DNA of 45,816 bases, from the NCBI RefSeq assembly GCF_014705615.1, contig NZ_JACXJA010000060.1, positions 1 through 45,816 of the forward strand. The letters are read 5' to 3'. The notes beneath the pieces are model-generated. The model did no database searches and was not told where the DNA came from. It worked only from the letters and a program-made list of their open reading frames with translations. The translations under genes and the position numbers were made by a program. The DNA is from Paenibacillus oceani (GTDB lineage Bacteria; Bacillota; Bacilli; Paenibacillales; NBRC-103111). This document shows positions 322-45,741 of this stretch, piece after piece (position 1 is the stretch's first letter; every line of letters begins with the position of its first letter).

Positions 322-513
322 ATTAAGAGCTTTTTGCACCTCTTAATTTCAACAAACTTGGGCGCCAGACAAGAATAGCGGATGTTTGAAACTCTTATTT
401 TCACATATATTAAGTTTTAAGCCGATTAGGCTGTCAATAAGAGCTTCTATCGACTTCTATTCTCCTCCATCGGCCGAAAACGTGGCAAATAGCGGCTTCT
501 AGAGACTTTTATT
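322..513. repeat. Four-palindrome spaced array A (AATAAGAG type)
   Basis: Four 26-bp blocks, each an 8-bp arm, 10-bp centre and 8-bp arm, start at 322, 374, 436 and 488 (spacing 52, 62, 52). Block 1 is ATTAAGAG/CTCTTAAT, block 2 AATAGCGG/CTCTTATT, block 3 AATAAGAG/CTTCTATT and block 4 AATAGCGG/CTTTTATT. Block 1 is a perfect palindrome; the others are imperfect but keep AATA at the left edge and TATT at the right. Array D at 45549-45741 has the same block family and spacing, and arrays B and C (4877-5309) have the same geometry with another palindrome. No cas genes are near. The function is unknown. Confidence 0.7.
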
Positions 514-4375: not shown

Positions 4376-4597
4376 GAGCTGAAGCACCTCCACATAAACA
4401 GACGGCGGATACCGTCGTTTCGCTTGCAAGCCTTTCCATTCATTATTTCAAATCACTGGAAAATGTCAACGGAAATTCAGGGGTGAATATTATAGGACCC
4501 CAATTTCACTGTAAAGCGGAGGCTGACGACCTTATTCTCAAGCTGCATCCGTTCGAAGAGGGGCTTACACCATCGGAAAAAGATTTGACGATAAATA

Positions 4598-4661
4598 AGA
4601 AAAGCATTTAAACGAAGCCTTTTCCACGATGAATGACCCTGCGTAAGAGGAGGCTTTTCTT
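4598..4661. repeat. Hairpin repeat element, copy 1
   Basis: Arms AGAAAAGC (4598-4605) and GCTTTTCT (4654-4661) enclose a loop whose central stretch, beginning TTTTCCACGATGAATGACCC, recurs almost unchanged in copy 2 at 5385-5447. The two copies lie in the same orientation about 790 bp apart. Confidence 0.75.
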
Positions 4662-4876
4662 GGTACATAAACTCGCATTTTGCTATATTGACGCAAAGCT
4701 TCGATGCTTTACCGTTTAGCAAATTTAAAATTTCTGCAACGATAAGAAAGAACCGTCCGTAAAGCACCTGATGGTTCTTTGACATGCAAACCCATCCGCC
4801 AGCGCGTGGAAGGGAATGGATACCTTCGCTACAACCGCTCGCTCTCAATCGTGTTGCCTTCATGCGGTGGTATGGC

Positions 4877-5057
4877 TAACGAACCCCACATTCGTTATCG
4901 AAGCCGAATGCGGGCGTTTGAATTTGTAACGAACTCTTGAATCGTTATTCCCGCAAATCGGATCGTTTTTTTCCACTTTCGGTTCGATAACGATGCTTGG
5001 ATTCGTTAAGTCTGGAATAACGTCGTTTTTCAGCCATAAGTACGGTCCGATTCGTTA
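4877..5057. repeat. Four-palindrome spaced array B (TAACGAA type)
   Basis: Four 21-bp blocks (7-bp arm, 7-bp centre, 7-bp arm) start at 4877, 4927, 4988 and 5037 (spacing 50, 61, 49). Arms are TAACGAA/TTCGTTA, TAACGAA/ATCGTTA, TAACGAT/TTCGTTA and TAAGTAC/TTCGTTA. The arms of block 3 are the exact reverse complement of those of block 2, so these blocks could also pair with each other. The linkers are 29, 40 and 28 bp. Array C follows 70 bp later. Confidence 0.75.
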
Positions 5058-5127
5058 GTCATCGAACCTGAGTAGTATATGTTCTCTAATCTAACGCCAA
5101 GTAAGGAAACGCGGAGAACAATAACTC

Positions 5128-5309
5128 TTACGGACACAGCGGTCGTTATTACGGTGCATTTCGATCCATTTGATTTCTAACGGACATGAATGCAACTATT
5201 TGGTGAGATATGTTACTTTTAGAGGTGGTTCGGAGTAAATAAGCGCTGTGGTGACCGTTACATTTCAAAAAACTGTTCTTCAGCGAAATAGCCTCCACCA
5301 TGTCCGTTA
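5128..5309. repeat. Four-palindrome spaced array C (TAACGGA type)
   Basis: Four 21-bp blocks start at 5128, 5178, 5240 and 5289 (spacing 50, 62, 49), almost the geometry of array B. Arms are TTACGGA/GTCGTTA, TAACGGA/GCAACTA, TAAGCGC/ACCGTTA and TAGCCTC/TCCGTTA. Individual palindromes are more decayed than in B. Linkers are 29, 41 and 28 bp and the third shares a GTT-TTCAGC core with array B, suggesting the two are diverged copies of one element. Confidence 0.65.
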
Positions 5310-5384
5310 GAGTATGGTTTAGCTTACATTCCGGGCTCATCTTCGCTTTAATACGGTGAAGAACATAAACATTCTGATCTTTTA

Positions 5385-5447
5385 AGAAAAGCTTCTAAAC
5401 GCCCCCCTTTCCACGATGAATGACCCTGCTTAAGCGGAAGCTTTTCT
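5385..5447. repeat. Hairpin repeat element, copy 2
   Basis: Perfect 11-bp arms AGAAAAGCTTC (5385-5395) and GAAGCTTTTCT (5437-5447) enclose the same loop core as copy 1 at 4598-4661. The stem is longer than in copy 1, while the loop sequence is the better conserved part. Confidence 0.75.
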
Positions 5448-42962: not shown

Positions 42963-43021
42963 CACGACCTCCTATTCGCATCCCAGGCGGTGTTAGGATA
43001 TCTGATAAATCCAGGCTGCAT

Positions 43022-43095
43022 TGAAAGTGCTTACAAATTCTATTATAAAATTATTCGCATCGTAACCAATAGACGAAAACATTTCATCCATTGGT
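43022..43095 (-). promoter_or_regulatory. Promoter, 31-bp palindrome and cre-like site of the 1373-aa lyase gene
   Basis: On the minus strand, a 31-bp inverted repeat (43095-43065; arms ACCAATGGATGAAA and TTTCGTCTATTGGT) overlaps a -35-like ATTGGT. A -10 TATAAT (43047-43042) follows after about 17 bp, and a cre-like TGTAAGCACTTTCA (43035-43022, one mismatch to the CcpA consensus) sits at the likely start of transcription. The same arrangement recurs at 45410-45482. Confidence 0.75.
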
Positions 43096-43152
43096 AATTT
43101 GATGACTTATCGAGCAGGAATCGTAATCGTATGGAGGAGCTCCCGGTATAAC

Positions 43153-45396: not shown

Positions 45397-45409
45397 AACA
45401 AACCATATT

Positions 45410-45482
45410 TGAAATCGCTTTCATACTCTATTATAAAATCATCGACTCGTTACCAATAGACGAAAACATTTCATCCGCTGGT
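45410..45482 (-). promoter_or_regulatory. Promoter, 31-bp palindrome and cre site of the beta-helix gene
   Basis: On the minus strand, the inverted repeat (45482-45452; arms ACCAGCGGATGAAA and TTTCGTCTATTGGT) overlaps a -35-like ATTGGT. A -10 TATAAT (45435-45430) lies 16 bp further, and TGAAAGCGATTTCA (45423-45410) fully matches the CcpA cre consensus just after the -10. The block is nearly identical to 43022-43095. Confidence 0.75.
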
Positions 45483-45548
45483 AATATGATGACTTCTCCT
45501 CCGGTGGATGAATACAACAGCCTCTCTCCTTTTACGATTTAATGCGGC

Positions 45549-45741
45549 TATAAGAGCGGTTTGCACCCCTTATTGGGCGTGTTTTCTTGAAATGGGAGAA
45601 AATAAGAGCGATTTGCACCTCTTATTCCAGCCAATCTGCCGGAAATTCGCCATTTGACGAAAAATAGAAGCTGCATATCGCTCTTTATTTGCATTTGAAA
45701 CCTGAATACTTACAGAATAAGAGGCTCAAACCGTAACTACT
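45549..45741. repeat. Four-palindrome spaced array D (AATAAGAG type)
   Basis: Blocks start at 45549, 45601, 45663 and 45716 (spacing 52, 62, 53). Arms are TATAAGAG/CCCTTATT, AATAAGAG/CTCTTATT, AATAGAAG/CTCTTTATT and AATAAGAG/TAACTACT. Block 2 is perfect; block 4 has lost its right arm. Blocks 1 and 2 share the centre ending TTTGCAC with block 1 of array A, some 45 kb away. Confidence 0.7.

Follow-up and report, generated by a model that had tools for sequence, protein, structure and literature searches.

Symmetric four-block intergenic arrays with near-fixed spacing and exchangeable palindromes in Paenibacillus oceani and its relatives: candidate sites of protein-directed DNA wrapping

Protein sites that run direct and are then mirrored occur in mobile DNA: the ends of IS21- or Mu-type transposons carry two or more sites that are direct within an end and inverted between ends. 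MITEs, which have terminal inverted repeats, usually have a target site duplication as well. The bcr1 element and other bacterial MITEs are described as short dispersed non-coding elements (PMC3733652). The BIME-2/REP sequences of enterobacteria are interspersed, spaced palindromic sites in intergenic DNA, some of them bound by DNA-wrapping proteins such as gyrase. In BIMEs the REPs are regularly spaced with alternating orientation (PMC2817692), and a GTAG or CGTC tag lies beside the palindrome of REP/REPIN sequences (PMC3733652). The gyrase motif of Escherichia coli is long and degenerate, with nucleosome-like periodic changes of G+C in two arms, a period of 10.75 bp and a length of about 130 bp, and BIME-2 elements are gyrase sites; palindromic half-sites are not mentioned in the portions of that account drawn on here (PMC6379681). 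Among the proteins of Firmicutes and other bacteria that have been proposed to wrap DNA are RemA and the octamers of LrpC/AsnC. RemA protects 7-bp stretches 3 bp apart, and its repeats, in the sections of the source used here, are AT-rich, direct, modestly conserved and located in regulatory DNA upstream of a promoter (PMC8481266).

The window, by which we mean the whole analysed stretch of 45,816 nucleotides from Paenibacillus oceani, contains four arrays that share some of these traits. Three unrelated palindromes define the classes to which we assign arrays of this layout: TAACGGAC (class I), ATAAGAGC (class II, comprising arrays A and D of the window) and CTGCAAA (class III). Arrays B and C share one intergenic stretch. 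The blocks are as follows.

4877..4897, plus strand: array B, block 1, half-site TAACGAAC on the left, facing outward
4927..4947, plus strand: array B, block 2, half-site on the left
4988..5008, minus strand: array B, block 3, half-site on the right, in reverse orientation
5037..5057, minus strand: array B, block 4, half-site on the right, in reverse orientation
5128..5148, plus strand: array C, block 1, half-site TTACGGAC on the left
5178..5198, plus strand: array C, block 2, half-site TAACGGAC on the left
5240..5260, minus strand: array C, block 3, half-site on the right
5289..5309, minus strand: array C, block 4, half-site GTCCGTTA on the right
323..512, no strand assigned: array A, class II, blocks 323-346, 375-398, 437-460 and 489-512, with degenerate half-sites, placed by eye
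45550..45740, no strand assigned: array D, class II, blocks 45550-45573, 45602-45625, 45664-45688 and 45717-45740, with block 4 degenerate, placed by eye

Block starts are spaced 50/61/49 bp in array B and 50/62/49 bp in array C, and, as placed by eye, 52/62/52 bp in array A and 52/62/53 bp in array D. A scan of the whole window for free palindromes at the array geometry, with 7-mer half-sites, a minimum of 19 matches in 21 and low-complexity words excluded, returned array B as its sole match and nothing at six shifted geometries; arrays C, A and D were missed because they are too degenerate for this threshold. The class-II scan scored array D at 25 of 32 and array A at just 22, the latter at a different placement, so the support for array A is the reading by eye together with a 93% copy elsewhere in the window's genome. 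Class-I blocks are not simple palindromes: each keeps a constant outward half-site, TAACGGAC or TAACGAAC, beside a loose second half. They represent one motif ordered → → ← ←, which makes the whole array an inverted repeat with a central dyad. Other repeats lie close to the class-II arrays of the window: a 9-bp unit (TTCCAGCCC-like) is tandemly repeated at 595-837, adjoining array A, and a repeat with a TTACCAAT/ATTGGTAA hairpin is found at 43021-43111 and 45409-45498, one copy about 50 bp before array D.

The symmetric layout → → ← ←, with a centre spacing of about 50-52/61-63/50-52 bp, is present in many genomes of the order. Direct pairs of the class-I half-site TAACGGAC at 48-52 bp were found in 54 of 198 genomes of the order and in 19 of 43 genera, against a maximum of 2 per genome for a reversed-pattern control. 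In genome G122, the direct pairs numbered 143+140 at 48-52 bp from start to start and 143+142 at 35-65 bp, that is, 283 of the 285 pairs of the broader search fall at 48-52 bp. Within about 404 kb of fetched sequence, which was chosen around arrays and in which loci partly overlap, the distribution of direct distances has its peak at 50, and that of direct-to-inverted distances has peaks at 125, 75 and 175, corresponding to a centre spacing of 50/62/50. This is also the commonest geometry in a narrow spacing window (69 of 126 distinct sequences, a set that includes a few overlapping registers). Four exact class-I half-sites occur in at least 119 stretches of genome contigs, and the 80 such stretches listed are labelled Paenibacillus, Fontibacillus, Cohnella or Paenibacillaceae. 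The exact class-I pair is absent from many relatives, including three of the four same-genus genomes, so some lineages can dispense with the site. The four-block arrays at nearly fixed spacing, which a sequence-only reading had picked out in the window, are thus confirmed by block coordinates and by recurrence throughout genomes. Because matches to arrays B and C as well as class-I and class-II pairs recur genome-wide, class I above its control, the spacing is commoner than chance and the four arrays of the window are not the only instances.

Several aspects of the distribution are worth recording in their own right. Whole arrays are tandemly repeated in G122, in units of about 250-300 bp (for example, C17:583-584 kb). 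In the single-contig genome G117 (C1), among the matches listed to 4.98 Mb, no class-I array lies between 2.57 and 4.38 Mb, a stretch of 1.8 Mb in mid-chromosome, and G101 has no comparable array-free gap among the 100 places listed. One IMG/VR contig of 27 kb (L429), the sole viral-contig match, carries three class-I half-sites at the right spacing.

The same layout is built with other palindromes. Class II and class III loci were chosen by an exact direct pair and then fitted inside a spacing window. For class II, 13 of 20 loci in the window's genome fit best at 52/62-63/52, and most others come within 1-2 bp; that genome has 33+22 class-II pairs (ATAAGAGC). The pair search matched 17 of 147 genomes, a count that overstates class II because the matches in G021 and G108 sit 50 bp apart and look like loose class-I-like halves. 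Class III was first met in the thiG-thiD gap of G126 and G024, relatives that have no class-I array there and that score 31 and 32 of 36 against at most 29 for their own control geometries; in the same scan, one control geometry reached 33 in a repetitive locus, and scores of 29-30 were seen at the real geometry in several loci. Class-III pairs stand clearly above control in several genomes (14+16 in G108, 12+9 in G165, 14+15 in G199), and one G024 pair sits at the same thiD place. The class-III pattern is short: 111 of 198 genomes match it, most with one to three matches, near the level of a control whose highest counts were 8 (one genome) and 5 (two genomes), and the matches in G000 look like parts of class-II blocks. 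The class-III set holds 20 loci, of which L453 is cut by a contig end and L448 and L456 do not fit, and 17 of the 19 complete loci lie at 50-52/61-62/50-52. Since a control window reaches at least 11 of 14 in 8 of the 20 loci, the 7-mer test is permissive for any single locus, and the evidence is the recurrent distance. At the thiG-thiD region (L399-L404), the array is of class I in some species (G161, G110 and G186) and of class III in others, as though one palindrome had replaced the other in situ. Because class II and class III loci share the class-I spacing, the geometry is kept while the palindrome changes, and the earlier suggestion from two palindromes that spacing is independent of palindrome sequence now extends to three.

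With respect to genes, the arrays show an intergenic bias and favour gene 3' ends and convergent neighbours. We could class 68 of 80 named loci, using ORF calls from a crude script of our own (the other 12 had an ORF missing on one side): 33 lie between codirectional genes, 22 between convergent and 5 between divergent ones, and 8 overlap a called ORF. The excess of convergent over divergent neighbours (22 against 5) has a p value of 0.0015. No recurrent neighbour gene emerged from these loci and nine further ones; the largest cluster held 4 of 268 proteins, and the families were generic. The preference for gene 3' ends and convergent neighbours makes a role in local chromosome architecture or supercoil management likelier than promoter control. 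It also separates the arrays, with their constant inverted half-sites mostly near gene 3' ends, from the RemA repeats.

The spacers carry a signal of their own. Among 65 non-redundant class-I arrays, whose mean identity outside the half-sites is 41%, the spacers with the 21-bp blocks masked have an A+T period of 10.1 bp with a power of 0.999, compared with a mean of 0.006 and a maximum of 0.018 in 300 spacer shuffles and with 0.001-0.004 at 10.1 bp in the flanks. The period is 10.4 bp in class II (power 0.327, shuffled maximum 0.051, 26 arms) and 10.2 bp in class III (power 0.724, shuffled maximum 0.059, 28 arms). Given a measured A+T period of 10.1-10.4 bp, the block spacings amount to about 5, 6 and 5 turns; the 5/6/5 helical turns proposed before from block distances have thereby gained independent support from the spacers alone, in three classes. 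Such A+T phasing is the signature of duplex DNA bending one way over about 18 turns. It is a sign of bendability, not of wrapping, and the continuous helical phasing of bendable steps that is expected of a wrapping site is present in the arrays.

We consider it probable, on geometry, symmetry and phasing together, that an array is a selected site where DNA wraps or strongly bends round a sequence-specific protein complex; protein binding, wrapping and biological role are all what we infer from the DNA. The complex would occupy a DNA site of about 185 bp, with four protein units on the four palindromic blocks, each unit in class I gripping the outward half-site. At intervals of 5, 6 and 5 turns, all blocks would face the same side of the helix, with the halves of the array mirrored about the dyad, and the phased A+T-rich and G+C-rich steps of the spacers would let the DNA curve one way throughout, like nucleosome-positioning DNA. 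The palindrome that is recognized would have changed between lineages, giving three classes, with no change in the scaffold responsible for the geometry.

A topoisomerase could in principle supply such a complex, the arrays being strong sites for gyrase or another enzyme of this kind and functional analogues of E. coli BIME-2, with the palindromes as accessories. Like the arrays, the gyrase motif is long, degenerate and periodic in composition, the motif having nucleosome-like periodicity (PMC6379681), and the preference for gene 3' ends and convergent neighbours would suit gyrase. However, the class-I power, nearly complete at 10.1 bp, is 0.003 at the 10.75 bp of gyrase, the phased region of about 183 bp exceeds the roughly 130 bp of the gyrase motif, and gyrase alone leaves three exchangeable palindromes unexplained. 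As a whole, the arrays have a period of 10.1-10.4 bp over about 185 bp and palindromic half-sites, and we regard the gyrase account as improbable.

The reading as a protein-wrapping site gains weight from the comparison of species. By comparing G161 and G186, we found eight arrays at orthologous places, in which the half-sites differ at 4 of 256 positions, block centres at 29 of 160, loose halves at 35 of 256, spacers at 110 of 790 and flanks at 312 of 2057. Only 1 indel falls inside the arrays (1462 columns), against 49 outside (2057 columns). The conservation of half-sites is inflated, since the ortholog pairs were mostly chosen through an exact half-site pair; counting just the worse half-site pair of each array, which corrects this selection bias only partly and applies to one species pair, still gives 4 of 128 changes against 110 of 790 in spacers (Fisher p 0.0002). 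Leaving out the doubtful L213 pair, the changes are 3 of 224 in half-sites and 95 of 691 in spacers, with 1 indel inside against 33 outside. Two of ten ortholog alignments (L153 at 2971 and L208 at 920) had been dropped as register artefacts of arrays already counted. Because the loose half-sites change as fast as the spacers, the palindrome is only partly conserved. In G102, a genome without an exact class-I pair, the thiD array has lost block 1 through a deletion and its block-4 half-site is further from the consensus, which as a single case fits decay in the absence of a trans-acting factor.

The main rival to the nucleoprotein reading is a non-autonomous minimal transposon with two transposase sites per end (L1 L2 - R2 R1) and a spacing set by the transposition complex, and dispersed copies are where this rival finds its strength. 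The site order of the arrays is that of some transposon ends. Queried with arrays B and C, the 8.05-Mb genome of the window gave 42 matches, the query itself included, which are 79-94% alike. Array B sits in a larger element, and the features around the B-C pair are as follows.

4743..5110, no strand assigned: composite repeated element carrying array B, from the end points of copies and the alignment of 30 copies
4747..4780, plus strand: AAAGAACC/GGTTCTTT, a hairpin resembling a terminator, at the left end of the B element
4596..4660, no strand assigned: 65-bp hairpin repeat to the left of array B, from repeat comparison
5383..5447, no strand assigned: further copy (86%) of this hairpin repeat, on the right side of array C, from repeat comparison

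Matches to the B element start mostly at 4742-4743, a sharp left end, and end mostly at 5110. The 30 aligned copies consist of the left terminator-like hairpin, about 90 bp, the array and a tail, and many copies share a further tail of about 60-80 bp that is absent from the copy in the window. The 65-bp hairpin repeat, present on both sides of the B-C pair, also matches other fetched loci of the genome. Another array family, in G101, is spread all round the chromosome among the 100 places listed. Arrays B and C and this one G101 family are thus dispersed copies, and such families of similar composite copies are more than a purely host-function model requires. Two of 17 tested G101 copies lie between long flanking direct repeats that look like duplicated hairpins (control, 4 of 127), and inverted flank matches were seen in 4 of 64 arrays against 1 of 505 in the control. 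At L377 and L373 of G101 (by eye also at L366 and L368), array copies stand between two similar terminator-like hairpins, as if duplicated on insertion; at L377, the flanking hairpins are identical at 26 of 26 aligned bases.

Against the transposon stand the arrays that occupy the same place in different species, with half-sites and length kept there, and the spacers, which have lost similarity yet keep length and phasing. Direct repeats of 2-8 bp at the edges of the 65 class-I arrays are no commoner than in shuffled pairs. Long flanking direct repeats, the kind covered by our test in regard to larger composite elements with ends elsewhere, were found in none of 64 named arrays, none of 16 from G161/G186 and none of 9 others. 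Among the fetched G122 loci, 56 of 59 distinct direct pairs have an inverted pair at the fixed offset, so long gene-carrying versions are not common there. Compared with IS21- or Mu-type ends, the arrays are short and of fixed length, with no gene between the ends in those seen at fetched loci. Compared with MITEs, they show no target duplication at their edges and are conserved at orthologous places, and the MITE trait of similar copies dispersed through a genome is found in some array families only. We therefore think a transposon unlikely as the explanation of the design, though it deserves to be taken seriously. Both processes could have acted in turn, the element spreading by copying and then being kept for its function.

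Transcription into a structured RNA, with four hairpins or nested pairings, was another thought suggested by blocks that are near-palindromic and could pair as b1:b4 and b2:b3. The hairpin adjoining array B in its element has matched stem changes in two copies (L070 and L088), and single-column and helix covariation scores looked suggestive for b2:b4 and b1:b3. Under within-genome permutation, however, the inter-block z values are scattered and inconsistent between genomes (the largest are 2.5-2.8 for b2-b4, seen in G122 only, and 3.0 for b3-b4, seen only in the other genomes), and we therefore discount them: the aligned arrays have no consistent compensatory change between blocks, and the pairing envisaged from the sequence is not supported. 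By eye, 11 of 30 B copies have the right half of block 1 changed and the left half unchanged, and across class I the loose halves vary while the outward halves, which the selection of the set fixes, are constant. No Rfam family reached its gathering threshold in the window. An A+T period of 10.1 bp is a feature of duplex DNA, and a half-site that is identical in all four blocks and from array to array within a genome suggests a trans-acting factor and not pairing in cis. A structured RNA is accordingly very improbable. Thus, of the three options raised at the outset, a protein-DNA scaffold fits best, a mobile family holds in part (for the B/C and G101 copies), and a structured RNA is not upheld for the blocks.

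Spread as REP/REPIN sequences by a REP-associated tyrosine transposase was also considered, the arrays being intergenic, numerous, palindromic and inverted in arrangement, and is refuted as a general account, with next to no chance left to it, by the patchy presence of Y1_Tnp. A full match is found in 3 of 13 array-rich genomes (G117, G056 and G099, one or two each) and one PF01797 match below the cut-off in G078; PF01797 has no match in the other nine (G122, G118, G135, G101, G160, G029, G032, G094 and G088). Y1_Tnp is also present in some genomes without class-I arrays, and beside the five Y1 matches of the window's own genome, a search for TAACGGA/TAACGAA found one lone TAACGGA. GTAG or CGTC tags occur within 12 nt outside the array at 4 of 130 ends, and the order of the blocks, two direct and then two inverted, is not the alternating one of BIMEs. 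Moreover, the arrays differ from BIME-2/REP in having a fixed, mirror-symmetric set of four sites, near-invariant spacing, exchangeable palindromes and 10.1-bp phasing. No description of such arrays was found in searches of the open-access literature, subscription journals being outside their scope, and the view that the design belongs to no named repeat class stands in that literature, where the nearest kinds differ in the traits that define them. These differences, together with the combination of geometry, exchangeable palindromes and phasing, set the arrays apart from the nearest known kinds; identification of the binder could bring them closer.

Returning to the array as a site of protein-directed wrapping, we tentatively suggest that the order may have a dedicated chromatin-like system, in which half-sites and 10-bp phasing position a core that wraps about 185 bp, and in which palindrome and cognate protein have repeatedly been replaced; we hold this wider proposal with less confidence than the wrapping site itself. 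If it is right, the arrays would be a sequence-specified, nucleosome-like positioning element in bacteria that can be read straight from sequence. The three palindrome variants separate specificity from geometry, which would make protein-driven chromosome folding testable in non-pathogenic Paenibacillus through simple phase-shift and binding assays, and the presence or absence of each class across related genomes offers a route to the cognate proteins through gene content.
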